Positions 2,498 through 14,844 of a DNA stretch of 64,000 bases are shown here, piece by piece. The stretch spans positions 1-64,000 of the forward strand of contig NZ_JAPNXS010000009.1 in assembly GCF_030397575.1 (NCBI RefSeq), given 5' to 3'. Below the pieces are notes generated by a model, which was not told the DNA's origin, ran no database searches, and saw only the letters and a program-made list of their open reading frames with translations. Within the stretch, counting starts at the first letter, position 1. Every line of letters begins with the position of its first letter. A program made the position numbers and the translations under genes. Source of the stretch: Psychromonas sp. 14N.309.X.WAT.B.A12 (GTDB lineage Bacteria > Pseudomonadota > Gammaproteobacteria > Enterobacterales > Psychromonadaceae).

Positions 2498-3418
2498 TTA
2501 TTCTGCTTCAAATGCAGCTTGTAAGAATGGAATAATTTGCTTCTTACGGCTTACTACGCCGGGTAAATCAAATGTATGATCTACAACGGTGCTGTTCAAT
2601 GCCTTAGCGACTTTATCTTCATCTTCTGAGATTATAATTGCTACGGTATCAAGTTTATTGATATCTGTTAATAAAACGATGGTTGAGTGATAACCTTTTT
2701 CAGCTTGCAAAACGCCCATCTCAGCTAACATGTCTGATTTTTTAGATAATGCTGTATCTAAAGAAGTTAATTCAAGTTGGCCGATTGCTAATTTATCACC
2801 CGCCATTTCAAATACTTTTTGATCACGCAAAATTAATTCAGCAGCAGGTACCGATGCGATATCTGATTTAGCTTCAAACTGCGCAGCAGCAAATGCTTCA
2901 ATATCATCAACGCCAGCGATTGCAGCTAATTCATTCGCAGCAACTTTATCGATATCAGTCGTTGTTGGGCCTTGGAAGTTAACCGTATCAGAGATGATTG
3001 CACCCATCATCATTTTAGCTACAGGCGCATCTGGAACTTGGTTATTAAATTTATACATGTTGTATACGATAGTTGCACTACAACCTACTGGCCAAATCCA
3101 ACACTCTAATGGAGTAGACGTTGTGATATCACCTAATTTATGGTGGTCCACAATACCTAGAATTGTTGCTTTCTTCATGTCTGCAGTACCTTGACCCCAG
3201 TCAGAGTAGTCAACAATAAAAATTTCTTCACCCGCAACTTCTGTACGGATTTCTGGTTGTGGCAAACCTGATTGCTCTAACAAGAATAACGCTTCTGGAT
3301 TTGGCTCACCTTGTAGAGCAGGTGTTGCTGTTTTACCCATTTTATTAAATAAGCTGGCAAGGCCAATAGCACTACAAAGGCTATCACAGTCCGGGTTTTG
3401 GTGTCCTAATACGATCAT
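2498..3418 (-). CDS. ppaC: Manganese-dependent inorganic pyrophosphatase, family II
   Basis: The enzyme hydrolyses pyrophosphate to phosphate and drives biosynthetic reactions; family II enzymes are DHH-superfamily proteins using Mn2+ or Co2+. The N-terminal DHH domain shows GHQNPDCDS (metal-binding His and two Asp), VDYSD and the hallmark VDHHK. The C-terminal DHHA2 part has the substrate-binding SRKKQI near the end. The open frame begins at a GTG at 3430, but the ATG at 3416-3418 has GGAA eight bases upstream and gives 306 residues with the usual MIVLGH start. It stands alone between two terminator-like or palindromic regions. It marks the last core gene before the accessory island. Confidence 0.94.
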   Translation of the reverse strand: MIVLGHQNPDCDSLCSAIGLASLFNKMGKTATPALQGEPNPEALFLLEQSGLPQPEIRTEVAGEEIFIVDYSDWGQGTADMKKATILGIVDHHKLGDITTSTPLECWIWPVGCSATIVYNMYKFNNQVPDAPVAKMMMGAIISDTVNFQGPTTTDIDKVAANELAAIAGVDDIEAFAAAQFEAKSDIASVPAAELILRDQKVFEMAGDKLAIGQLELTSLDTALSKKSDMLAEMGVLQAEKGYHSTIVLLTDINKLDTVAIIISEDEDKVAKALNSTVVDHTFDLPGVVSRKKQIIPFLQAAFEAE

Positions 3419-3997
3419 CGTTGTTTCCACATATGTTAGTAAATTAATTTGGGGGTTATTAGTTAATTACTTGAAGAATACCTGATTCTGCAAGTAATTT
3501 TAAGTATAAACGCTTATCTAAAATAACTATTTTTAATCTTACTATTCTTACATTAGAAGTATTAAGCGTTAAGATATTATTCTACATAGAATATTAGTAG
3601 TTATTCTTAGTATTAATTATCGAGTGCAATAAATTAATACTTTCTATCATCTCATTTAGATAGATTCAGAAACGTTAATATAAATAAAATTATACTCCGA
3701 TGAGTTAGCAAAATATATAATACTGCTTAAGGTGAAAAAGTACTGCTTATTACACCTTTTTTAAATGCAAAGTGAGAGTACCATTTAGCCATTAGGTTAA
3801 GCATTTAATTGATAATATAAATTTAGCTAAAGTTTTATAAATAACCTTTATAAGTTAAAAACAGCCTGAGTCTTTTTATGGTTGAACTCGAAGGCCGTTT
3901 AAAAATGTGAACTAAACTAGGTGGTTAAACCAAAAACGCGACAAAAACTAGCAATGTCAGTTCAAAGCTGAACGAACCACCTAAATAAAACTTAGTT
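3419..3997. other. Non-coding AT-rich junction between ppaC and the accessory island
   Basis: I find no convincing gene here. It contains a strong inverted repeat at 3466-3498 (arms ATTACTTG-AGAAT and ATTCT-CAAGTAAT with one unpaired base on each side) in the ppaC 5' region. There is also a hairpin-plus-T-run at about 3731-3766 (AAGGTG and CACCTTTTTT on the plus strand) and a nested palindromic element at 3911-3990, listed separately. Base composition is extremely AT-rich, as expected for an insertion boundary. Confidence 0.6.
3911..3990. other. Nested palindromic element downstream of the viperin operon
   Basis: Outer arms TAGGTGGTT (3918-3926) and AACCACCTA (3975-3983) are perfect 9-base complements 48 bases apart. 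They enclose a smaller hairpin GTTCA-AAGC-TGAAC (3960-3973). It lies immediately behind the kinase-like gene, where the operon transcript would end. It could be a terminator-like structure, a small RNA, or one end of a lost mobile element. No T run follows the outer stem, so an ordinary intrinsic terminator is less likely. Confidence 0.4.
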
Positions 3998-4602
3998 TTA
4001 GCGACTTACCTTCGCAAAAACAAGATTAATTTGTTCTTTCATTAGTTGATAGTTTTCCTCTATAGAACGACCATGTTTTTCTGATGTATCAATTTCTACA
4101 ATGGGGATATCAAACCACTTAAAGATTTTTTATAGGCTGTTTCTACACAATTATTTTGCGTTATTTCATCGCCGTACCACTGAAGCTCACCACCTCTAGC
4201 TTTTATCCTACTTTCTATAGTGTCTGCATCAGCTTTAACAAAGACAACCACTTCTGGAAGAAGAAGTTTTTCGGCAATGTTAAGCGTATCAAAGATACAC
4301 TTGACTGTATTTTCTCCAAGCATAATGGTCTGGTATGCTAATGTTGAAAATATATATCTGTCTAGTATGACATCCCCTGACTCTACTCCCTCCGAGACCT
4401 CATGACTCTTCAAAAAGTTATTCATCAAAAAAAATAACAAAGCACTCTCCATTGATTCATAAGAATCAATGACCTTTCTTAGTTCTAATGACTCATCTAC
4501 AACTGCTGAATGAACCATGGAGTTTCTCTCTTTTGCATAGAGTGAACTTAGTGTTGTTTTTCCACACGCGTCTAATCCTTCAAAAACGATAAATTTATTC
4601 AC
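3998..4602 (-). pseudogene. Thymidylate-kinase-like nucleotide kinase, frameshifted near its 3' end
   Basis: The first 168 codons (4096-4602, GTG start with AGGTG upstream) encode a dTMP-kinase-like P-loop kinase. It has FEGLDACGKTT with the Walker A GKT at residues 14-16, a DRYIFSTLAYQ segment resembling the family DR(Y/F) motif near residue 81, and a LID-like RIKARGGELQ. The frame then runs to a stop. Adding one A to the A6 run (plus-strand T6 at 4126-4131) restores a natural continuation of about 42 residues (beginning IFKWFDIPIVEIDTSE) that ends at 3998-4000, giving about 200 residues, the usual family length. The loss therefore looks like a one-base deletion. It may be real decay, a sequencing error, or slippage that still yields some full-length protein. 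It is the last gene of the viperin operon. A nucleotide kinase beside a viperin fits supply of NTP substrate. Confidence 0.75.
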
Positions 4603-4745
4603 TTTTCACACCTATTCTAATTTATAATTTGTCAGTAAAATGGAGGCCCTTATAACGACCACCAATATAAACTTCACTTTTACGTTGGCACTTTTTAGCG
4701 CTATAACGTACAACTGTATTTTTGATTTTTTAGAATCAGAGTAAT

Positions 4746-6056
4746 TTATGGGTTATTCATTTTCTTCTCAACTTGTGCCCACTGAATCTTTAATCTATTC
4801 TTTGCTATTTCAAAATCAGATACTTTCAAAAGATAGTCTGCAAACGCAGTCATCATTCCAAGAGGATTTATAAAATCATTTTTCATGTACTTTAACGCGC
4901 TCGCATTACCTAATTTAATCGCTTTATTTAAACATTCTTCAGCTAGTTCAATATCAGCTTTAACATACTCTCCTCGATGAAATATCTTAGCTAACTCAAA
5001 CATTGAATCAGCACAACCAAATTCACTTGCTTGCCTAAAGTATTCAATGGATAGATTGATATCTCTTGCACAAGCCTTGCCTTCAAGATAAATAATCCCT
5101 TTCTTATGCAGACTGAAATTGTCTTTTATTGCTTTGTCATGAGTGATTAATTTGGCTCCCTCTTTATAGTGGCCAGCTAAGTATTTTTTCCACCCTAATT
5201 GTGGATACGCTGCGCTATATTTCCTTTTAACCAATGCACGTAAAATTAATTGTTCTTCATCTGGATTAATTTCAGCGATTTTTTCAGTTATAGAGAGCAT
5301 TACATAATGAAATAGTGACTCATAACCATTAGGGCTAATTTTGATACCTTGCTTATTCTTGATAGAGATATCTGAAATAGATAAACCTGTACTAAAATAA
5401 AATGCACTTTTAAAGCATTCATTAGCAAAGCGATAATAAGGGTTTGGCACTTTAGAACGACCATCATTACACAAGACAAAATTTTCGCGTTCTTTCGCTA
5501 AGCTTTGATACACAATCCCTAGGGTAAAATGTTTTTGATGATCTGTTGAACCTAAGCAAGTGTAGAAAAGCTCTTTAACTCCTTGTCCACCAGCTGCAGA
5601 TAGAGCGTATTTAGGTATACGTTTTACTACCTTAAGATCAATAGCTACTAACTCCAATATTTCTAATATGTCTTTACGCACTTTTATTGCATTACTTATA
5701 AGCTTCTTAGTATGTGCCGTAATATCAATGTTTCTTATCTCTTTTTTTCCAATCAAGTTCTCAGGTAGGTGCACGCCCGCATTTGTTTGTTGTCTAGCTT
5801 TGTGTAACAACTCTTTTGTAATAACGTTGATAAACGTTTCTTTAGCTAATTCATTAATTTGCTCGCATAAATCAGTATTATCAAATTCGTAATCATAATT
5901 TTTCGCCACTTTTAAGCATAAACTCTCGAGCCCCTTTCTAAACATCATTAAACTAACATCGGCATATACGTCCATTAACATTAATGCATTGCTATATTCA
6001 GTGGCTATAGGCTCACCGAATAAAGCTACAAATTGCTTGTCATTATCAATACTCAT
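4746..6056 (-). CDS. HEPN/DUF4145-like and Sel1-like repeat protein, viperin operon partner
   Basis: The protein has 436 residues, is predicted cytoplasmic and has no signal peptide. The N-terminal 25-100 region resembles DUF4145-type HEPN domains: a helix with LMMFRKGLESLCLKVAK followed by LHKARQQTNAGVHL, whose R88, N92 and H96 fit the R-x3-N-x3-H pattern of this group. Residues about 318-392 form two Sel1-like helical repeats (INLSIEYFRQASEFGCADS and IELAEECLNKAIKLGNASA). The middle is unrecognised. Its ATG overlaps the viperin stop by four bases (ATGA at 6053-6056) with an AGGAG-type site, so the two are translationally coupled. HEPN domains in defence systems are often RNases, and Sel1 repeats mediate protein contacts. 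A role as sensor, effector or scaffold for the viperin pathway is inference. Confidence 0.7.
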   Translation of the reverse strand: MSIDNDKQFVALFGEPIATEYSNALMLMDVYADVSLMMFRKGLESLCLKVAKNYDYEFDNTDLCEQINELAKETFINVITKELLHKARQQTNAGVHLPENLIGKKEIRNIDITAHTKKLISNAIKVRKDILEILELVAIDLKVVKRIPKYALSAAGGQGVKELFYTCLGSTDHQKHFTLGIVYQSLAKERENFVLCNDGRSKVPNPYYRFANECFKSAFYFSTGLSISDISIKNKQGIKISPNGYESLFHYVMLSITEKIAEINPDEEQLILRALVKRKYSAAYPQLGWKKYLAGHYKEGAKLITHDKAIKDNFSLHKKGIIYLEGKACARDINLSIEYFRQASEFGCADSMFELAKIFHRGEYVKADIELAEECLNKAIKLGNASALKYMKNDFINPLGMMTAFADYLLKVSDFEIAKNRLKIQWAQVEKKMNNP

Positions 6057-7030
6057 GCTAATTCTCCTTGACTTAAAAGAGACAATGATTGGTTTTGCTT
6101 AAACTGGTATTCACGATCACTAATCAGTTCAAGTACATTCATTACGGTTGATTTTTTATAACGGCTGCTAAATATTTCCCAATCAATCTCACAGATCTTT
6201 AATGCTTGATCAACGCTAACATCTAAAATTAACTCACCATATTGGTAACCGCTTTGTGTGGTACTATTTTGATAAAAACGACCTTCAGGATTAATCATTA
6301 AATATGAATTGGTCATTGCATCATTATCTTCAACAACCATCACTTCGCTTAACTCTTGATGATTATCGACAAAATCAGAAAACTGCTTATCAGTTACTAA
6401 GAGCTGTTTATTTAATACAGGAAGTACTTGAAATACTTTCCATTTATCAGGGCAGATCTGAGCAATCAGCTCTACAAATGACTCTTGATAATTCAAGCTA
6501 TTGACCACTGTATTTACTTTTATCGAAATAGTTGGATTAACCTTACGTAGACGATTAACAGTATTAATTAAATCAACTTCATCAAATGAGCCACCTTTTC
6601 GATCTATTCGACCAATATTTTTTCTACCATCAACAGATTGACTATCAAAGCTAATACCAATCATCGAGAATAAAGAACCATAATGGTTTATAAATTCATT
6701 GGTTAAGTAATGCCCATTAGTAATAAGCGATAAGTTAAAACCAAGCTCCTTAGCTTTTAAAATGAGTTGTGAAAAACGTTCTTTCAGAATTAAAGGTTCA
6801 CCACCTGCAAAATTAATACGAACACTTTTATAGGGAAAAGTAGCTTTGACTTGATGAGTATTTTCATCAAAAAAATAAGCGGCTAATTTTTCAAGCATTA
6901 ACTCTGCATCTTTCCCTTGGGCATGTATTTCATTTGGGCGGTCCCATTTCGCATAACAAAATTTGCAAGAGTAATTACAAACTTCTGTAACATGATAATT
7001 AATGACTAGTTCATTAAATGAATTACTCAT
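6053..7030 (-). CDS. Prokaryotic viperin (pVip), antiviral radical-SAM ddhNTP synthase
   Basis: Viperins use a [4Fe-4S] cluster and S-adenosylmethionine to turn NTPs into 3'-deoxy-3',4'-didehydro-NTPs, chain terminators that block phage or viral RNA synthesis. The 325-residue protein has the viperin-type start VINYHVTEVC and the radical-SAM triad C18-x3-C22-x2-C25 followed by YAKW. It also has the SAM-binding FAGGEPL and SLITNGHYLT. Matches to the vertebrate enzyme continue downstream: GISFDS, IKVNTVVNSLN, DKWKVFQVLPV and NSYLMINPEGRF line up with its KINSVINRFN, VRWKVFQ and DSYLILDEYMRF segments. Those C-terminal matches separate it from MoaA-type proteins. A strong TTAGGAG site precedes the ATG. 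A 37-codon ORF overlaps its start, and its stop overlaps the next gene. Confidence 0.93.
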   Translation of the reverse strand: MSNSFNELVINYHVTEVCNYSCKFCYAKWDRPNEIHAQGKDAELMLEKLAAYFFDENTHQVKATFPYKSVRINFAGGEPLILKERFSQLILKAKELGFNLSLITNGHYLTNEFINHYGSLFSMIGISFDSQSVDGRKNIGRIDRKGGSFDEVDLINTVNRLRKVNPTISIKVNTVVNSLNYQESFVELIAQICPDKWKVFQVLPVLNKQLLVTDKQFSDFVDNHQELSEVMVVEDNDAMTNSYLMINPEGRFYQNSTTQSGYQYGELILDVSVDQALKICEIDWEIFSSRYKKSTVMNVLELISDREYQFKQNQSLSLLSQGELA

Positions 7031-7136
7031 AAGAAACTCCTAATACAAGGTTCATAAGTATTTCTTTAATGAGTTGATCCGCTAAAGATAATTGATTGGT
7101 CTCATTAATTAGAGAAAGAAGAACTAAATGATACAT
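7023..7136 (-). CDS. Small ORF (37 aa) overlapping the viperin start; possible leader peptide
   Basis: The ATG at 7134-7136 has an excellent AGGAG site seven to eight bases upstream. The frame reads 37 codons (MYHLVLLSLINETNQL and so on) and stops at TAA 7023-7025, inside the first codons of viperin (ATGAGTAA). The peptide is leucine-rich and amphipathic and matches nothing I recognise. The overlap means ribosomes leaving this ORF could reinitiate on viperin. A translational control role, or a small toxin or sensor peptide, is inference; the reading frame and its ribosome site are seen directly. Confidence 0.6.
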   Translation of the reverse strand: MYHLVLLSLINETNQLSLADQLIKEILMNLVLGVSYE

Positions 7137-7142
7137 AATTTA

Positions 7143-7204
7143 CTCCTAATATCACCGCACTATGCGGTGACTTCAGGAGCAAGTATCAAACTGTGAAATT
7201 CACA
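7143..7204 (-). promoter_or_regulatory. Control region of the viperin operon: SD-masking hairpin and promoter dyad
   Basis: A perfect 8-base stem TCACCGCA-CTA-TGCGGTGA (7152-7170) is flanked symmetrically by CTCCT (7143-7147) and AGGAG (7175-7179). In the minus-strand RNA the 5' CTCCT can therefore pair with the AGGAG ribosome site of the 37-codon ORF across a 4x4 internal loop. Just upstream is a perfect dyad TGTGAA-A-TTCACA (7192-7204). It adjoins a candidate -10 box GATACT (7182-7187). The dyad is placed where a repressor would block RNA polymerase. Folding and repression are inference; the symmetry is seen. Confidence 0.6.
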
Positions 7205-7226
7205 AAAAAGGGGGAAATGAAATTAT

Positions 7227-7910
7227 TTAATATTTATTTAGTAACTGTGCATACTCCTCATATTCCGCTTTTTTACTGTAGTAAAGCTGTACTAACCATT
7301 CACCATGCTCACTAGTAAAAGCCTCAGGATGATCTAGAATCAATACGCCAAGCTTGCCAAACTCTCCCTCAATAACGGCCTTTAATGCTAGATCGTAGGG
7401 GCTAGAATCCATATCCAGGGCAATAGAATTAGCAATCATCTCCATTGAACTGTATTTCCCATCACTAAAAGGATAAGGGATCTCATCTTGAGCCCAATCT
7501 ACCTCTTCATTTAATAAAAAAAGTCGAAGGTCGCCAACATGTTTATCCAGCGCTTGAAACAATACCTTTTTTGCTTTCCATTCATTGGCAAATTTTTCAA
7601 AATTGTCGGCTTCAATTTTTTCACCATTAAGCCAATTAATCACTAATTTTTTATCTTCAAATAAAGTATCTAAAATCACTAGATTGCGAATAAAAACATG
7701 ATTACCAGCTTTAATGGGCTTAGGTACATAATCAACTGACTCTGACTTTACGTCTGGCTCATCAAGCAGCTTAGCTTTTAGCTTTTTATCTTTAACGTAA
7801 TAATTTAAGCGAGCTCTCAACCGCTCAGGCAACAAGTAACGTTCAATGCCTAAAGCTTGACAGGCAACAGCTGCAATACTTGTATTCTTACCAGCCATAT
7901 CGATTTCCAT
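7227..7910 (-). CDS. Uncharacterised cytoplasmic protein, last gene of a three-gene cassette
   Basis: I do not recognise this protein. The open frame starts at a TTG at 7931, but ATG at 7908-7910 (AAAGG ten bases upstream) or ATG at 7896-7898 (GGAA seven bases upstream) is more likely. The first gives about 227 residues. The sequence is mixed alpha/beta, charged and without signal or membrane segments; it ends in a tyrosine-rich helix (VQLYYSKKAEYEEYAQLL). It overlaps the end of the preceding secreted-protein gene, so both belong to one operon. Its place between a viperin operon and a restriction remnant makes a defence role plausible but unproven. Confidence 0.6.
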   Translation of the reverse strand: MEIDMAGKNTSIAAVACQALGIERYLLPERLRARLNYYVKDKKLKAKLLDEPDVKSESVDYVPKPIKAGNHVFIRNLVILDTLFEDKKLVINWLNGEKIEADNFEKFANEWKAKKVLFQALDKHVGDLRLFLLNEEVDWAQDEIPYPFSDGKYSSMEMIANSIALDMDSSPYDLALKAVIEGEFGKLGVLILDHPEAFTSEHGEWLVQLYYSKKAEYEEYAQLLNKY

Positions 7911-8313
7911 AGCAGCCGAGCCTTTGCTCAACCATACTCAGTGAAGAAGCGCCATCAGCAATAGCCTGGTAATTTATGCTATACGTATCAACATCACAGT
8001 CTTGCGCAGTTTTATATATGGCCCCAATACAAGTACCAGCTAAATATGCTTCTTTAAGCGAAGTACTAAAAGAAAGTAATGATTTTTTTTGCTCTATAAA
8101 CTCAGAACAAGATTCTCTAAAGCTTATTCTAGAGTGAGAATAATAACCTGTGCATTGTCCCGCTAAATGAGCTTCAGTAACAGAGGTAGATAACCTTGTT
8201 AACAGTGACTGCTTTTGCTCTTCTTTTTCTTCGCAAGCTAGTTTTATATTAACGTCAGCGAAACTATTTGAGCTAAAAAGCAAGCTAGTAAATAATAAAA
8301 ACCACTTATACAT
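7888..8313 (-). CDS. Small secreted protein with an internal cysteine repeat, possibly Rap1a/Tai-like
   Basis: The protein has 141 residues with a clear signal peptide (MYKWFLLFTSLLFSSNSFA, cleavage after FA), so it should be periplasmic. The mature part carries two similar units: residues about 39-56 with TEAHLAGQCTGYYS, and about 79-97 with KEAYLAGTCIGAIY. Each joins a serine/leucine-rich helix to a Cys-Gly motif. This vaguely recalls Rap1a/Tai-type immunity proteins of type VI secretion (Cys-x-GYI-x-G), but I hold that only weakly. The ATG overlaps the stop of the upstream membrane-protein gene by eight bases (ATGTATAA), and its own stop overlaps the next gene. Confidence 0.6.
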   Translation of the reverse strand: MYKWFLLFTSLLFSSNSFADVNIKLACEEKEEQKQSLLTRLSTSVTEAHLAGQCTGYYSHSRISFRESCSEFIEQKKSLLSFSTSLKEAYLAGTCIGAIYKTAQDCDVDTYSINYQAIADGASSLSMVEQRLGCYGNRYGW

Positions 8314-9142
8314 TCGCAGCCTCTACTTCTTTTAAATCCTTTGACACATCATTTTCAATCGGCTTATCAACAAGTTTAAAATTAATAAGACAAACAAGAA
8401 ACAAACTGATAATAACGATATCATCAACCCAATACGGATTAAATTTAATGGTAATCAGAATAGGAATAAAACATAGGAAACACACTTTCAAGAATATATT
8501 GACACAATGAATCCCCAATAAACTGATATTAAATCGAAACGGGGTTTTAGCTGCTTTTCTATATTTACTAATTAATTGCTTAATTGCTTTAAAGTTTGCA
8601 ACACAAAACCAAATTAATAGTAGTTGAACAAACAGGTTTTCTTGTGTTTTAAAAAACATTAAAAGACTTACAAAACCTATTATTCCTATAACAATGAGCA
8701 TAAAAATAAAGTGTATAAGAGAGTGCCCCCAATGAGTCGGTAGTAATTTTTGGGCAATATGTTTCTCTCTAGAAACAAAATAAAATCTTGATTTAGATTG
8801 CACTTGAGCGGCTTTATTGAGCGTTGATAAGTAATTAAACACCAACTGATGATTTGTTTTATATGTTAAAAAACCAGCATCAGAGAACTGAAAGTCTGCA
8901 TTTTCATCTAACAAAGTATTTTTCTTATCTAAATATTCGACGGCTTCAAACACTTTTGTTAACTGCTCATTTTCTTTATCTTTTATATCCGTTATCTCGA
9001 ACTCAACATCCTTTTTTAAACACATTAAAGTGGTTCGCCACTGCTGTATTAATTCAAGCTGAGATAAAACAGCCTCAGATGTATCAGACTTCGTGTCTTG
9101 TGCGCTTTCACTTGCTTTGTTCGGTTCATCTTTACTGTTCAT
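8306..9142 (-). CDS. Membrane protein with an N-terminal coiled-coil region
   Basis: The protein has 278 residues. The first 30 are polar and Ser/Glu/Lys-rich. Residues about 30-80 form a likely coiled coil (ELIQQWRTTLMCLKKD, then EKDKENEQL-type heptads). Four hydrophobic segments follow: about 142-166, 169-185, 205-232 and 238-256. The C-terminus is charged and probably cytoplasmic. I do not recognise the family. It is first in a cassette with the secreted Cys-repeat protein and the 227-residue cytoplasmic protein, with eight-base gene overlaps, which points to one functional unit. Its ribosome site is weak. Confidence 0.6.
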   Translation of the reverse strand: MNSKDEPNKASESAQDTKSDTSEAVLSQLELIQQWRTTLMCLKKDVEFEITDIKDKENEQLTKVFEAVEYLDKKNTLLDENADFQFSDAGFLTYKTNHQLVFNYLSTLNKAAQVQSKSRFYFVSREKHIAQKLLPTHWGHSLIHFIFMLIVIGIIGFVSLLMFFKTQENLFVQLLLIWFCVANFKAIKQLISKYRKAAKTPFRFNISLLGIHCVNIFLKVCFLCFIPILITIKFNPYWVDDIVIISLFLVCLINFKLVDKPIENDVSKDLKEVEAANV

Positions 9143-9222
9143 TTGACTTTAAATACCCTTTTTGATTAATTTAAAATAAGATTCTTTCAATAATTACTAA
9201 CTTTAAAAATATACTGTATAAA

Positions 9223-9683
9223 CTATGTCTTAATATTCGCCTTAACCGCCTCTGCTTGCTCAAAAATTTCTTTGTATACTTCATCACGGTGATTCCAGTC
9301 TGTGAACTTCGCTTTATTATCGACAATCACTTTTACCGCTTTAGCCAGTTCAATGAGCTTGTCTTCTGGGTAATCAAAGTCATAACGAATGGCTAGTTCA
9401 TTTGAATAAACGACCAACGTGCGTCTTCAGGTAAGTAGAAGATATTTTCCATGGTGTAAAACTCCACCATATCGATATATTCATTGCCATGCTCTGCGGC
9501 AATGGCGTTTTTACGCACTTCAAACTTGTCACTGATGAATTTAAGGAAGATGAGACTTAATACGATGTGCTTGTATTCAGCCGATTCAACACTACCACGT
9601 AGTTTGTTGGCGGCATCCCAAAGTGATTCTTCAAAACCAACTTGTATTTTTTTTGGGGTCTTTTTTGCGGGAGATTTTGCCAT
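9223..9683 (-). pseudogene. Type I restriction-modification remnant: HsdM start joined to HsdR end
   Basis: The 5' part (9393-9683, ATG with lysine-rich MAKSPAKKT start) is the first roughly 93 residues of a HsdM DNA methyltransferase: SLWDAANKLRG, HIVLSLIFLKFISDKF and LPEDARWSFI are the family N-terminus. It runs to a stop, and in an overlapping frame (9223-9417) the sequence becomes the C-terminus of a HsdR translocase/nuclease (DKLIELAKAVKVIVDNKAK, DEVYKEIFEQAE). Part of the HsdR tail between these two segments also appears to be missing. The catalytic NPPF of HsdM, all of HsdS and the motors of HsdR are gone, so the locus is dead. A deletion between hsdM and hsdR explains it. Confidence 0.8.
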
Positions 9684-10036
9684 GATTTTATACCTAAAAC
9701 GTTGTTTGAAAGAGCTTACCCTTTAATAACTATAATCATACCGAACTATTCATAAAAATTTTACTTTTAAATCAAATAGATCACTGAATATTGTAAATAT
9801 TGTGCAAGTAATACCAATTTAGCATGGAGCCTAATTAGTTTTGTTACTGTGCCTATTATTTCAATTGTCAAATATAGACTCCATGAACAAATCAAATTCA
9901 ATCAAAGCTAAACTCAATCAAAACAATATTAATTTAAAAACAGATATTGATTAAATAAAAATAATCACTTACACTCCTTAAATCGAATCAAAACAATATC
10001 AACAATAAAATACATTTAGATTAAGGAGTTGATGGT
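9684..10036 (+). promoter_or_regulatory. Upstream region of the UDG-like operon, with repeats and an SD-masking hairpin
   Basis: This AT-rich gap has no gene. AATCAAAACAATAT occurs twice in direct orientation (9916-9929 and 9986-9999, 70 bases apart), which could be operator sites. ACTCCTTAA (9973-9981) is complementary to TTAAGGAGT (10021-10029), the ribosome site of the next gene, so the leader RNA could hide it; ATC/GATT extends the pairing with one bulge. CATGGAG (9823-9829) and CTCCATG (9879-9885) form a further inverted pair. I could not pick a convincing promoter. Confidence 0.45.
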
Positions 10037-10735
10037 ATGTTACCTTGTCACGGAAAAATTGATTGTAATAAGTGTTATAACAATATGGACCGAGTTACCA
10101 ATTTAAACCCGCTTTGGAAAATGAAAAATGATCCTGGTGCGTGGGGCTCAAGTAAACCTGAAGTTCTTATATTAGGCTTTTCAAAAGGCAGTACTCAGGC
10201 AAATATTTATGAGAACGGTAATTTTAATGATATTGCATTTGGCGGCCCCTCTCGTAGTCGACTTGACCAAGCATTGAAATGCGTTGGTCTACTTCAACCT
10301 AGCGAGCATGTAACCGATATGATATCGAACAACAATAGTAAAATGGCTTTTGGCTCACTAGTACGCTGTAGCTTAAGCCGAGAAGACAAAAATGGTAAAC
10401 ATGCATGCTCTGGCGCATTAATAAATAAATCATTCAAGGAAATTCCAGAAATATTAAACAACTGTGTTTCTCAACATATTGCTGTATTACCAGAAGAAAC
10501 CAAGCTGATTATTATGCTAGGAGTAGGCGAGGCTTATATTAAAAATTGTCGCCATCTGTTATCTAAAATAGGTGACATAGAAGAAATAAACGCCGTTAGC
10601 TATAAAGTGAATAACAAAATGTTTGTTCATTTGACCCACCCTTCTCCTGCTAATGGGCATTTTAATGCTTGGATAGAAGGTGGAAACAAACAAAAGTTAG
10701 CTAAATTAGCAATTAACAAAACAATGACACTTTAA
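10037..10735 (+). CDS. Uracil-DNA-glycosylase-superfamily-like protein
   Basis: The protein has 232 residues and a good AAGGAG site. The fold signals are VLILGFSKG (equivalent of the VLILGQDPY-type first strand), a central segment RSRLDQAL and a C-terminal HLTHPSPANGHFNAW that resembles the HPSP DNA-binding loop of uracil-DNA glycosylases. Cysteines near the N-terminus (C4, C10, C13) and later ones (C114, C124) recall the Fe-S cluster ligands of family 4/5 enzymes, but I cannot assign them. The usual catalytic Asp/Asn is not evident, so activity is uncertain. The next gene follows after 14 bases and is likely co-transcribed. In a defence island such proteins may recognise modified or damaged phage DNA, which is inference. 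Confidence 0.6.
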   Translation: MLPCHGKIDCNKCYNNMDRVTNLNPLWKMKNDPGAWGSSKPEVLILGFSKGSTQANIYENGNFNDIAFGGPSRSRLDQALKCVGLLQPSEHVTDMISNNNSKMAFGSLVRCSLSREDKNGKHACSGALINKSFKEIPEILNNCVSQHIAVLPEETKLIIMLGVGEAYIKNCRHLLSKIGDIEEINAVSYKVNNKMFVHLTHPSPANGHFNAWIEGGNKQKLAKLAINKTMTL

Positions 10736-10749
10736 AAAGGAAAACTAAG

Positions 10750-11556
10750 ATGAATGACTTTGAATTATTTTGGCAAGACTTAAACAGCGAGTTTACTCAT
10801 TACATTAAGGCGACAGAAAAAGAGATGCCTGAAAAGCTACAGCTACTAATGAAATATGGCAAAACAGGTAAATTTGAGGAAGGTTTGGATGTCGACCTTC
10901 TGGATGATCTTTCATGTACTGTATTAACAGGTGAAATAGTTGCAGATATAAGAGGGTTAGACAAAAAGCCCCTTATACAACTCAAAGACGCACTGACACT
11001 TTTTTTTGCACGACTTAAGCTAGAAATAGAGAGAGGAGTTGAATTACCGCCGATGCTTGAAGCCTGTTTTCCGCTAATAGACTTAATGACAGGCGTTCAA
11101 GAGGATTATTTAACAATTTATGAGTTAAGCCTGCTCTGGGAAATGCATCCAAACACGATTAGAAATGAAGTGCTTAACACCACCAAAATTCGTTCGGAGC
11201 TTCAGAAGAAAGAGCGTTTGGTACTTGTACCTGTTGGACTTGCATTATCGTTATCCATGGAACGACGAGGGTTTACCGCGACAGAAGAGCCAGAAACAGA
11301 AGGCATGATATTAGTCCCTGTGACGTCTAACAATGAGTTTTTTAATTATCAGTGTCGAAACCGCAAAGGTTTTCGGATAGGCCTTAAAGGCTCAGAGTTT
11401 ATTATTGATGACGTCACAACCGCGTTATCTGAACTCAGGTTAATGAAGCCTAAAGCTTACTGGCGCAGGAAGAACACATCAGGTAACTGGACAATTGTTT
11501 CGGCGATGCGTTGGGAGCTAAGAACAACAGAAGAAGTACTAGGTACTGAATCATAA
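10750..11556 (+). CDS. Uncharacterised protein with a helix-turn-helix-like segment
   Basis: The protein has 268 residues and I do not recognise it as a named family. Residues about 122-140 (LTIYELSLLWEMHPNTIRNEV) look like a helix-turn-helix that could bind DNA. The N-terminal half is helical and acidic. The C-terminal half is beta-rich (QCRNRKGFRIGLKG, AYWRRKNTSGNW). A purine-rich AAAAGGAAAAC site precedes the ATG. It follows the UDG-like gene by 14 bases, so the two probably act together. Confidence 0.6.
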   Translation: MNDFELFWQDLNSEFTHYIKATEKEMPEKLQLLMKYGKTGKFEEGLDVDLLDDLSCTVLTGEIVADIRGLDKKPLIQLKDALTLFFARLKLEIERGVELPPMLEACFPLIDLMTGVQEDYLTIYELSLLWEMHPNTIRNEVLNTTKIRSELQKKERLVLVPVGLALSLSMERRGFTATEEPETEGMILVPVTSNNEFFNYQCRNRKGFRIGLKGSEFIIDDVTTALSELRLMKPKAYWRRKNTSGNWTIVSAMRWELRTTEEVLGTES

Positions 11557-11641: not shown

Positions 11642-12454
11642 ATGCATGAATCTATCGCTAAAGCGCAATTAAAAGGTCAAGTTAGACTTGCACAATCTCA
11701 GTCAAAAGAGATTTTGGATCATATGCAAAATCAACATTTGCCTAAACCACTGCTCAGTAACAAAAAAGGTATCAATAAATATATAAAAGCATTTACTGAT
11801 ATGGCAGCTAATTCAATTATTAAAGAAAAGCATCATATTAAAAGGTCATCGTGGCACTATAAATATCAACTTATTCATTTTCAAGACACGCCAAGTAACA
11901 TACCTGGATATGGCTCATATAATTCGATAATAATGTATTCTTTTGATACAAGAAAACTCATCAATATTAAGAAAATGGAACAAGGTCATGTCCATACTAT
12001 AGTGAACATTTTCTGTCATGAGCATTTTTTTATTCGCTGTATTCAAAGAATTAATGCATTAAATATAGGCGATGTTGGTAAAAAAATTTATCCGATAATA
12101 GAGTGGTTGATACAAAATAACATCCCAATGAAACATATTCCTGAAGATGCCTACTTTGTGTGCGAAGACTGCGTGTTTGTGGCTTTAAGGTTGCCGAATA
12201 GTCAAGGTCTGTTGTTCAAGACTATTTTAATGAAAGACCAAATGACTGATAAACAAAATCGGCTATTCACTGAAAATAAAAACTTATCAGCAGGATCTGA
12301 GGTGTTTGCTTATTTGGTCAATGAAGAAGCCAGTATCCTAAGGACTATTCCAAAAGAAAATAATGATGCTTTTGCCATAGATTCAAAACCTTCAAATTGG
12401 CTGCTTCATTTAGAATATGGATCAACTGTTGAGAATGAACAAAACACAAAGTAA
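11642..12454 (+). CDS. Uncharacterised 270-residue protein
   Basis: I do not recognise this protein. It is basic and rich in His, Lys and Asn, without signal peptide or membrane segment. It contains a His/Cys cluster (NIFCHEHFFIRCIQRI, near residues 122-137) and a CEDCVF motif near 179, which could bind metal. The gap of 85 bases from the previous gene holds no terminator, so it may belong to the same transcript. Codon use is as AT-rich as its island neighbours. No function is proposed. Confidence 0.55.
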   Translation: MHESIAKAQLKGQVRLAQSQSKEILDHMQNQHLPKPLLSNKKGINKYIKAFTDMAANSIIKEKHHIKRSSWHYKYQLIHFQDTPSNIPGYGSYNSIIMYSFDTRKLINIKKMEQGHVHTIVNIFCHEHFFIRCIQRINALNIGDVGKKIYPIIEWLIQNNIPMKHIPEDAYFVCEDCVFVALRLPNSQGLLFKTILMKDQMTDKQNRLFTENKNLSAGSEVFAYLVNEEASILRTIPKENNDAFAIDSKPSNWLLHLEYGSTVENEQNTK

Positions 12455-13273: not shown

Positions 13274-13702
13274 ATGAGCAATAAAGTAGATATGAATGTA
13301 TTTTTACATTCGCTTTTAGTAACTAAGCAAATGGATAATTTCACTATATCTGAAGCTAAAGAGGCTCTAATAGCTCATCTCGTTGAATTTACAGATCCTG
13401 TTGAAGCAAGAAAGTTTATATACCGCCAGTTAACCTGAGGTATTGAAAAAGGATTAATTAAACGTAGCGACACCCCAAATAAAAAAATTAGAAAAGTTAT
13501 TTACTCCAAAACAGAGTTATTTTTTAACTCTACTTTTGTACCAAAAAAAGGGTAAATAAAGCTAAAAAGCTAATTCAACGTAAACAATGCCAACAAGAAT
13601 TAAAAAAACTAAGTTATCAAACTGAGTTACAACAAGAACTTCTAACCTATGAAATAGACTTAAACACCTTAATCGAAGAGGCTAAGAAATATAAACGATG
13701 AA
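13274..13702 (+). pseudogene. Broken helical regulator-like gene, joined to the truncated tnsB
   Basis: From the ATG at 13274 (GAGGCAG site) 54 codons read MNVFLHSLLVTKQMDNFTIS, then EAKEALIAHLVEFTDPVEA and RKFIYRQLT, then a TGA at 13436-13438. The same frame continues sensibly after the stop (GIEKGLIKRSDTPNKK, VIYSKTELFF) to an A7 run near 13543. A one-base shift there restores a helical tail (QQELKKLSYQTELQQELLTY, IDLNTLIEEAKKYKR) ending at about 13702. The last codons merge with the antisense end of tnsB, so the Tn7-like element replaced the rest of the gene. I do not recognise the family; its position opposite an XRE gene suggests a regulated accessory function. Confidence 0.6.
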
Positions 13703-14844
13703 ACTCTTCAACAAACGTTGAAAACCTCATAATTGCATCTTTCTTTGGATTATATTCTTCTTTTTCAAGAATATTTGAAAAGGTCTTACCGGGTAACTCA
13801 GATAAAAAGTATTGATTAATCATTCCAAAAAACCTTTCAACAAAAGGTTTTAACCAGGGTTTACGCACAGGGTTGTATTGAATATTGATGCCTGTAGCTT
13901 GACATGCATGCTCTAGGCTTTTTGACCAAAACTCTGCTCCGTTATCTACAACTAAGCTCTCAAATTTTCCATAGCAGGGCCATTCATTTTGCAGCTTAAT
14001 ATTTAAGTGGTCTAATTTTTTTGGTTTGATTGCATGTGAAATAGCCTTTGCTGCAGACACATAAGATGGCGCTTTGTAGCTTAGGTGAACCCCTAAAACA
14101 CAGCTACTAAACACATCAACGACTAATGTTAAGTAAGGTCGCCCAATCGGAATCATTAACTCATCATCCAGTAAAATCAAATCAAGTGGAGTATGATCTA
14201 TTTCTACCCGCTCTAATATACGTCTAGGCGGTATATGAGATGAGCAATAAGCAAACCATTGATCAGCTTTGAATTTACCATGTCGAGCAATGGCTGTCGG
14301 ATAAGGGGGAAGTGATTTAATTCGTTTATTAAACGCGTTATAAGAAACAGTTGGAATTTTTCCATCAACAATATTTTCATTCGCAATAATAATAAGATCT
14401 TTATAATATTGGTAAGCTATAGATATTTTAGGTCTTATGGCATCTAGAAAGCGCTCTAACGCTTTATTAAAAAACGAGCTTTAGCATTTGTTCTGTTGCC
14501 CATTTTATGATTCCCAGCGGCCAATGAAGCAACATCGCCATCACTTTCTATATATTTTTTACGCCAGCGAACAACCTTCCGCCAATCAGGCCTTATTGAA
14601 TTGTCTTTAACAAATAACTTATCCAATATTGGATCTATATTTTTTTGAGTCCATCCGCCAGTTTTTGTTTGTCTATAATGGTTATAAGCTTATATTTATC
14701 AAACGCTTTATCTTTCAAGAAATTAGAAAAGGTATCTAAATCTCTTTTAACTAGGTTTGCATCTTCTAATTTAATATACTGAGGTGGGGTATCGGGCTTG
14801 ATAGGTATTAACTCTTCCGAAAATTCATCAAAAAAATCACTCAT
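13647..14844 (-). pseudogene. tnsB: tnsB-like DDE transposase, frameshifted and 3'-truncated
   Basis: TnsB is the Mu/retroviral-type transposase of Tn7-like elements. The start at 14842-14844 overlaps the tnsA stop (ATGA), as in Tn7. The reading frame is broken twice. At a T7 run (14640-14646) one A is missing on the coding strand, after which the frame resumes with IDPILDKLFVKDNSIRPDW. At an A6 run (14469-14474) a second base is missing, after which it resumes with ALERFLDAIRPK. The catalytic triad is still readable: D in VEIDHTPLDL, D in VVDNGAEF and E in KPFVERFFGMI. After FVEEFHRLY the sequence becomes antisense of another gene (about 13697), so the C-terminal TnsC-interacting part is lost. 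No tnsC, tnsD or tniQ follows. The element is dead. Confidence 0.85.

Follow-up and report, generated by a model that had tools for sequence, protein, structure and literature searches.

How a bacterial viperin is switched on, and with which partners it works, is to our knowledge largely open. The question is raised by a 64,000-nucleotide (nt) stretch of Psychromonas sp. 14N.309.X.WAT.B.A12 (contig NZ_JAPNXS010000009.1, positions 1 to 64,000; hereafter the window), which is part of a 3.77 Mb genome. Here, a prokaryotic viperin gene (pVip) follows three genes, named o278, o141 and o234, and an RNA leader, and is itself followed by genes for a HEPN(DUF4145)-Sel1 protein and a VakA-type kinase (Table 1). 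The genes, their order, which is conserved in relatives, the 4-nt overlap between pVip and HEPN-Sel1, and a leader in which an open reading frame (ORF) follows a hairpin predicted to be stable can be read directly from the DNA. At about even confidence, we propose that o278-o141-o234, leader, pVip, HEPN-Sel1 and VakA constitute a multi-gene anti-phage cluster, in which an envelope module would unlock leader-controlled, nucleotide-based effectors.

Table 1. Features of the viperin cluster in the window
Feature	Positions	Strand	Length	Remarks
o278, predicted membrane protein	8306-9142	-		hydropathy; 47-52% identity to six relatives at the same place upstream of pVip
o141, small protein	7888-8313	-		signal-peptide-like N-terminus (by eye); six cysteines
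o234, soluble protein	7227-7898	-		start MAGKN common to relatives; reaches 7931 if read from an upstream TTG
Leader palindrome	7191-7205	-		TTGTGAATTTCACAG; starts 21 nt past the o234 stop
Leader hairpin	7143-7179	-		16 pairs and one A-A mismatch; 3' arm holds the Shine-Dalgarno (AGGAG) of the leader ORF
Leader ORF	7023-7136	-	37 codons	MYHLVLLSLINETNQLSLADQLIKEILMNLVLGVSYE; 3' end runs 8 nt into pVip and holds the pVip Shine-Dalgarno
pVip, prokaryotic viperin	6053-7030	-	325 aa	radical S-adenosylmethionine (SAM) protein; CxxxCxxC at residues 18-25
HEPN(DUF4145)-Sel1 protein	4746-6056	-	436 aa	4-base overlap with pVip; DUF4145 and Sel1 Pfam matches
VakA-type kinase, thymidylate-kinase(TMPK)-like	4096-4602	-	168 aa (open part)	frame interrupted near the C-terminus
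Rest of the kinase C-terminal coding region	3998-4095	-		out of frame with the open part (by eye against relatives)

The viperin, its kinase and the upstream genes

The pVip protein carries the cysteine motif C18-x3-C22-x2-C25 (HVTEVCNYSCKFCYAK), scores 336 bits against the NCBIfam equivalog NF038283 (cut-off 180) and matches the PADLOC model for pVip 'associated with kinases' at 2.7e-103. Its closest Protein Data Bank match is the viperin-like enzyme 7n7h (1.7e-29, residues 9-291). Judged by these matches, it is a bona fide prokaryotic viperin, and ddh-nucleotide production and phage protection are predicted for it. An earlier note, made from the letters of the window alone, had called this gene a viperin and placed it in an operon; both calls stand. 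The ORFs for pVip, HEPN-Sel1 and the kinase all lie on the minus strand. The same note had taken these three genes as the whole unit, and this did not hold: three upstream genes and a structured leader accompany them, and the set on plasmid HL-AS2 has no adjacent kinase (none within the 17 kb examined).

Prokaryotic viperins with an associated kinase, VakA, were reportedly described by Bernheim in 2021. The kinase of the window matches Pfam Thymidylate_kin (2.8e-12) and PADLOC VakA (5e-54, 181 bits), and more poorly PDC M51B (2.6e-20). It was therefore rightly noted as thymidylate-kinase-like, and its end at 3998 was not borne out, the open frame stopping at 4096. In three relatives (L002-L004) the kinase runs to 201 aa from a shared MN start, as against 168 aa open here. 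The segments GLDACGKTT and LDRY, which we take to be the P-loop and the DRY motif, both lie upstream of the break. The last ~40 residues are found by eye in another frame, down to 3998-4000, which explains the coordinate 3998. The interruption may be a mutation or an assembly error. In Psychromonas G022, two VakA-like kinase genes flank pVip (L067, 7969-8574 and 10353-10970).

The broken kinase frame and a type I methylase fragment adjoining at 9393-9683 could mean that the cluster is decaying in this strain and that the locus is a remnant. This seems unlikely, given that the other five genes are open, that the leader is conserved, that the HL-AS2 set suggests a kinase may be dispensable, and that a homopolymer assembly error is also possible. 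The fragment itself lies just upstream of o278 on the minus strand, spans 96 aa and matches a type I methyltransferase N-terminus; at the corresponding place L002 has a whole type I restriction subunit.

Nine close pVip loci, with 71-100% identity to the window pVip, were examined for the upstream genes. In eight of the nine, o278-o141-o234 precede pVip: the window, L002 (Psychromonas), L003 (Pseudoalteromonas sp. MMG010), L004 (Pseudoalteromonas XI10), L067 (from G022) and the Pseudoalteromonas plasmids L092, L093 and L110. The o278 protein has hydrophobic segments at residues ~145-163, 169-187, 214-232 and 239-257, and gave no Pfam match at E 1 and no PADLOC match at E 0.01. By eye, o141 consists of two similar halves with one cysteine pair each (C27/C54 and C69/C95) and contains two copies of a C...SLL..LSTS..EA.LAG.C.G repeat; the window copy falls below the hydropathy threshold used. 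The o234 protein shares 78-80% identity with six relatives from Pseudoalteromonas and Psychromonas, higher than the 38-62% identity of HEPN-Sel1 to its relatives. A profile search of 5.8 billion proteins, with the best 7996 candidates scored, placed o234 in at least 90 clusters; HEPN-Sel1 gave 10 in a single-sequence search of the same size, and the two counts are not like for like, as a profile reaches further. No relatives of o234 were found in viral contigs or phages.

What lies 3' of the cluster varies: type I restriction genes (L092), DRT1a (L093), DUF262 genes (L110) or core genes (window and L002). Short ORFs in L003 and L004 look like the beginning of the restriction gene of L092, as tested for L003, so that these loci are not fully independent.

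Among 394 sampled genomes from the order, with pVip counted at E 1e-20, 23 have pVip above cut-off and five have o234 (G000, G020, G022, G365 and G028). By family, o234 occurs in 1 of 335 genomes (that of G365), 0 of 11 (that of G135) and 1 of 152 (that of G028). Four of the five o234 genomes have pVip. The fifth, G028, is without a pVip match; there (L105, 7958-12634), o278-o141-o234 are followed by a leader with its ORF, a ParE-like toxin, a PDC-M51A radical SAM protein and a PDC-M51B kinase. A related arrangement is seen in G135 (L070, 6265-12460), where pVip has three ORFs upstream, one of them o141-like, together with PDC-M51A, a kinase and an NYN/OST-HTH protein; G024 (L076) resembles it by eye. 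The o141-like ORF, of 165 aa and at the same place as o141, matches it in hhalign (96%, E 1.5e-9), and comparison of o278 and o234 with the L070 neighbours was not significant (2% and 3%).

The leader and its reading frame

Seven leaders (window, L002, L003, L004, L067, L092 and L093) align without gaps over 186 nt spanning the pVip start. With its flanks, the window hairpin is predicted at -28.6 kcal/mol (z -8.26; 0 of 200 shuffles as stable), and the 53-nt hairpin stretches of all seven loci lie between -24.3 and -28.6 kcal/mol (z -6.0 to -8.3), again with 0 of 200 shuffles as stable. The first 14 bases of the palindrome occur in the 3.77 Mb genome at one exact and one single-mismatch site.

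A covariance model built from the seven pVip leaders and run over 28 sources gave 25 matches. Eight are pVip leaders (seven of them in the model), five lie directly before a kinase (L003, L004, L067, L093 and L110; E at most 1.8e-8) and one follows o234 in G028 (2.1e-9). A weak, partial match falls at the G006 pVip (0.0012), and ten further ones (E 0.07-0.9) are on the opposite strand at or near the same places. The other pVip loci given to the model yielded no leader match, and in the genome of the window the model matches once. Spacing is consistent: in each of the nine loci that have o234, 18-23 nt separate its stop from the leader, a second leader stands before pVip in the five loci with a kinase gene in between, and at five kinase sites the kinase starts within two bases of the expected start of the leader ORF.

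Among 109 genomes searched for the leader core pattern (at most one mismatch), only G000, G020, G022 (two sites) and G028 have it, exactly those with o234. It is absent from the other 105, including the pVip carriers G006, G009, G019, G024, G071, G085, G091 and G107. This coincidence would have a chance of 1 in 5,563,251 if genomes were independent; the samples are non-independent, and three of the four genomes belong to the same genus. The position of the leader right before effector genes, together with its absence from sampled genomes lacking o234, favours a regulatory link of the leader to the three genes rather than to pVip.

Against Rfam 15 (window 3400-9700) the leader stays below the gathering score, the best overlap being rli61 at 26 bits against 50; two leader patterns have no match in viral contigs; and a sigma-70 scan found promoter-like sites no commoner than in shuffles (20 versus 28.8).

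Within the seven pVip leaders, a single hairpin pair changes and still pairs, and another is lost in two sequences. At the 14 sites, 12 of them distinct, pairing holds in 94.8% of cells, compared with 34-51% when slid. Double pair changes number two, both in L105, and 24 of 500 shuffles do as well; over five pairing measures, shuffles reach the observed value in 68, 24, 72, 23 and 25 of 500. These statistics are supportive of the hairpin, not proof of it.

One possibility would be that the leader acts only as a transcriptional operator, a dimeric protein binding the TTGTGAnnnTCACAG palindrome and the hairpin being incidental. Both palindrome arms are intact in 12 of the 14 sites, the seven pVip leaders show no compensatory pair change among them, and GATACT after the palindrome could be a -10 box; if it were, part of the hairpin 5' arm would be left untranscribed. 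We nevertheless consider this explanation somewhat unlikely. The hairpin is far more stable than shuffles in 7/7 loci, the substitutions in its anti-Shine-Dalgarno arm (columns 31, 33 and 34 of alignment A10) all keep a standard pair, L105 has its two double changes, and the leader ORF appears to be kept as a peptide.

The last point derives from codon comparisons. The synonymous fraction of the leader ORF is highest in frame (0.34, versus 0.20 and 0.06). The ORF preceding PDC-M51 in G028 begins MYQLILFYLLNTKNLSPTDKTLKHQL and its G022 counterpart MYHLILFSLLNTTDQLSPSDTVIKTDL; over codons 2-27, with a hand-placed one-codon gap, 4 codons are the same, 11 synonymous and 10 non-synonymous. When the G028 ORF is compared with four pVip leaders, none of 5000 shuffles reaches the observed score in any of the four cases. 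The ORF is thus probably translated and conserved as a peptide.

The HEPN-Sel1 partner

The middle gene had been noted as HEPN/DUF4145-like and Sel1-like with a four-base overlap, and this description proved accurate. The protein scores 29.2 bits against Pfam DUF4145 (cut-off 23.1) and 40.3 bits against Sel1 (cut-off 30.7), the Sel1 score being joined by a solenoid fold. The AlphaFold model (predicted local distance difference test score (pLDDT) 81.4; predicted template modelling score 0.60) has helices to residue ~140, followed by a helical repeat solenoid at ~159-396. The helices at ~1-140 are read as the HEPN domain. A fold search with this model returned only repeat proteins among the matches listed; the repeats dominate such a search, which makes it uninformative on the HEPN fold.

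A candidate active site would consist of R88, N92 and H96, which in the model lie where helix 78-95 ends and just beyond. All 23 aligned proteins have N92 and H96, and more than 90% have R88. The canonical HEPN motif is Rx4-6H. Here the spacing from R88 to H96 is Rx7H, wider than canonical, and a catalytic role would be putative.

The partnership proposed in the earlier note was staked on co-occurrence in other genomes, and HEPN-Sel1 genes do lie directly beside pVip elsewhere. In all six named readable relatives (L002, L003, L004, L092, L093 and L110), HEPN-Sel1 is directly 3' of pVip, with a four-base overlap in five and a two-base gap in L004. Across the order sample, six genomes have a HEPN-Sel1 match above 100 bits (G000, G020, G365, G006, G128 and G174), and in the first five of these it adjoins pVip. 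The chance of at least five such genomes also having pVip is 2.5e-6 assuming independent genomes, which is optimistic: the genomes have relatives among them, and three (G000, G020 and G365) belong to the query alignment or lie close to it, G128 and G006 being outside it. In G128 the HEPN-Sel1 protein is only 24% identical, and its gene still adjoins and overlaps its own pVip.

All 23 pVip regions of the sample were scanned for HEPN-Sel1, one on a 3.4 kb contig and another on a 4.2 kb contig. Besides the five, only weak or distant matches to the HEPN model appeared, in G304 and G300. The weak G304 match (1.6e-5), to a divergent neighbour, was excluded from the count, as were three repeat-rich ORFs in G300 that match weakly at least 2.4 kb from pVip on the other strand. 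At L069 the divergent neighbour is a PADLOC Ankyrin protein, and similar-looking ORFs of 891-931 aa occur in L065 and L071-L073.

Could HEPN-Sel1 and the three upstream genes be hitch-hikers, retained by common descent beside an ordinary pVip and VakA in a defence island, with no joint function? PADLOC already lists VakA as a companion of pVip, and both HEPN-Sel1 and o234 are rare (10 clusters and at least 90 clusters; o234 in 5/394 genomes). A further 18 pVips have no same-strand adjacent HEPN-Sel1, some having a PADLOC Ankyrin-type neighbour, and the surroundings of L003 and L004, with their short restriction-gene-like ORFs, are related to those of L092. Such an account is nonetheless improbable in our view. 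Seven loci including the window carry the three genes with pVip and HEPN-Sel1 despite several different downstream neighbours, the G128 pair is adjacent and overlapping at only 24% identity, and the three genes and leader also occur with PDC-M51, without pVip.

A stronger competitor holds that several defence systems use HEPN-Sel1 as a general toxin or sensor plug-in, pVip being one partner among many, and that the upstream genes belong to a separate regulator. We rate this a serious possibility that falls just short of an even chance. The HEPN-Sel1 of G174 has no pVip and adjoins MksE and an SMC-like protein weakly matching LmuB, and a more distant relative in G346, also without pVip, adjoins PglZ and a ResIII helicase. 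These relatives carry SEC-C. HicA and RelE toxins are also found beside pVips (PMC10865869). On the other side, the close family (above 100 bits) lies beside pVip in five of six genomes; for the rest, this explanation overlaps with the one we prefer.

The HEPN-Sel1 partner is therefore, from gene neighbourhoods, real and recurrent, and not viperin-specific. Its recurrence beside pVip bears out the co-occurrence on which the earlier note relied, and it is not exclusive to viperin, as relatives adjoin SMC- and PglZ-type genes. HEPN(DUF4145)-Sel1-SEC-C proteins are encoded at L083 (8265-9707), beside an MksE/SMC operon, and at L106 (7416-8861), beside PglZ and a ResIII helicase; they may possibly be a plug-in partner of several defence systems.

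Other observations on the family are as follows. Weak plasmid matches to HEPN-Sel1 come from Vibrio parahaemolyticus (22% identity) and Cupriavidus (19%), with no viperin annotated nearby. Five relatives of family f6 (L086-L090) have, by eye, apparently the same chromosomal neighbours each time. No relatives were found in viral contigs. Three metagenomic pairs of HEPN and o234 clusters (P0004/P0021, P0005/P0028 and P0010/P0027) have equal longest contigs, which only hints at co-location.

Proposed mechanism and place among known systems

Taken as one system, the cluster suggests the following sequence of events. By prediction o278 is a membrane protein, o141 exported and o234 cytosolic; together they would act as a sensor module for the cell envelope or for infection, and this module would control the leader behind it. 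The leader hairpin may hide the ribosome-binding site and keep effector synthesis low until unlocked, with the 37-codon ORF serving as a gatekeeper or micro-partner. Once the effectors are made, VakA would provide nucleotide substrate to pVip, which would convert it to chain-terminating ddh-nucleotides. HEPN-Sel1, produced by coupled translation, could act as a second arm, most likely by cleaving RNA or by serving as a sensing scaffold through its Sel1 solenoid.

Several observations weigh against this proposal. At the level of the locus, G006 (L075) has a close pVip (73% identity) without the three upstream genes and without a clear leader. In L110 (Pseudoalteromonas shioyasakiensis A316, 2780-3614) o278 is split across two frames, the rest of that cluster being open. 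The structure model of o234 (pLDDT 52) was left unused, and the role given to this protein is a guess. The broken kinase frame of the window belongs here as well. For the leader, 76-nt stretches without the outer 5' arm reach a z of only -1.7 to -4.0 in six loci. No leader match precedes the kinase of the window, that of L002 or the second kinase of L067. The variable columns in the seven pVip leader ORFs, 24, 9 and 22 of 37 by codon position, make position 1 as variable as position 3, which is atypical of coding. For the effector arm, HEPN-Sel1 stands beside only 5 of the 23 pVips in the order sample. The copy beside the G006 pVip is broken, and in G022 a remnant of the first codons alone (MNTTSDDKQFVAL) follows pVip, adjoining an apparent transposase remnant (by eye). 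In G128, R88 is replaced by Asn. The wide R-to-H spacing, the two double pair changes matched by shuffles, the possible -10 box and the relatives beside SMC and PglZ genes, all described above, point the same way.

A broader reading, which we advance tentatively and with some doubt, is that o278-o141-o234, the leader and its microprotein ORF constitute a portable expression chassis that responds to infection and carries interchangeable defences based on nucleotide chemistry. Each cargo would stand behind its own leader copy, to be unlocked by the envelope module. Candidate cargoes would be viperin with HEPN-Sel1, VakA, or the ParE-like protein with PDC-M51.

Beyond the cluster, the window holds a minus-strand ORF at 13647-14180 with weak integrase-core (rve) matches below cut-off, perhaps an insertion-element remnant near defence genes. 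A plus-strand ORF at 10037-10735 has a weak uracil-DNA-glycosylase superfamily match below cut-off, and two ORFs next to it (10750-11556 and 11642-12454) have no Pfam matches.

Parts of this arrangement are already known: viperin with a kinase, RNase toxins beside viperins, and HEPN-Sel1 fusions. The viperin and TMPK-like kinase of the window match the PADLOC models of pVip + VakA systems (PDLC02904 / PDLC02911) strongly. Its HEPN-Sel1 protein and three upstream genes, in contrast, have no PADLOC match below E 0.004, the HEPN-Sel1 partner having no model there, and the window cluster has an RNA leader, a class of element that PADLOC does not cover. PDC-M51, a PADLOC candidate comprising a radical SAM enzyme (M51A) and a kinase (M51B), is similar in pairing a radical SAM enzyme with a TMPK-like kinase and, in G028, in following the same three genes and leader. 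It differs in that M51A matches pVip models weakly (0.00027 in L105, 0.0021 in L070). A PADLOC scan of ten window proteins found no M51A match.

Among published systems, PMC10865869 reports hicA and relE toxin genes beside pVip, and thus, as here, a gene for an RNase-type protein adjoining pVip; the putative RNase of the window differs in being a HEPN(DUF4145)-Sel1 fusion, translationally coupled downstream. A viperin with a TPR-domain protein is, according to PMC12988326, which cites Bernheim 2021, reported only in Archaea. It shares a helical-repeat protein as viperin partner, whereas the partner in the window is bacterial and joins an N-terminal HEPN domain to Sel1 repeats, the two being compared by description only. 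Anantharaman 2013 (PMC3710099) gives DUF4145 HEPN-Sel1 fusions and links of DUF4145 to defence loci, the same domain pairing as here, and mentions viperin 0 times. In the animal RSAD2 (viperin)-CMPK2 pair (PMC10058120), a nucleotide kinase gene likewise adjoins viperin, a likeness of gene arrangement only.

The earlier note knew of no description of its gene trio. The pVip and kinase pairing was already known through PADLOC VakA, and the pairing of HEPN-Sel1 with viperin was not found in the literature. The search, in the partial records it covered and with key viperin papers outside it, returned no work joining viperin with DUF4145, Sel1 or HEPN in bacteria, and none on viperin with VakA or with a leader peptide and anti-phage activity. 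It returned nothing on PDC-M51.

From its genes and leader, the cluster looks like an unusually well-regulated anti-phage system. It offers a candidate answer to how viperins are controlled: a conserved leader able to mask a ribosome-binding site, its likewise conserved ORF of 37 codons, an envelope-type module and a coupled HEPN-Sel1 protein. The same module and leader also precede a different candidate system of radical SAM enzyme and kinase, which suggests that nucleotide-based immunity is under shared control and makes PDC-M51 a better candidate for analogous chemistry.

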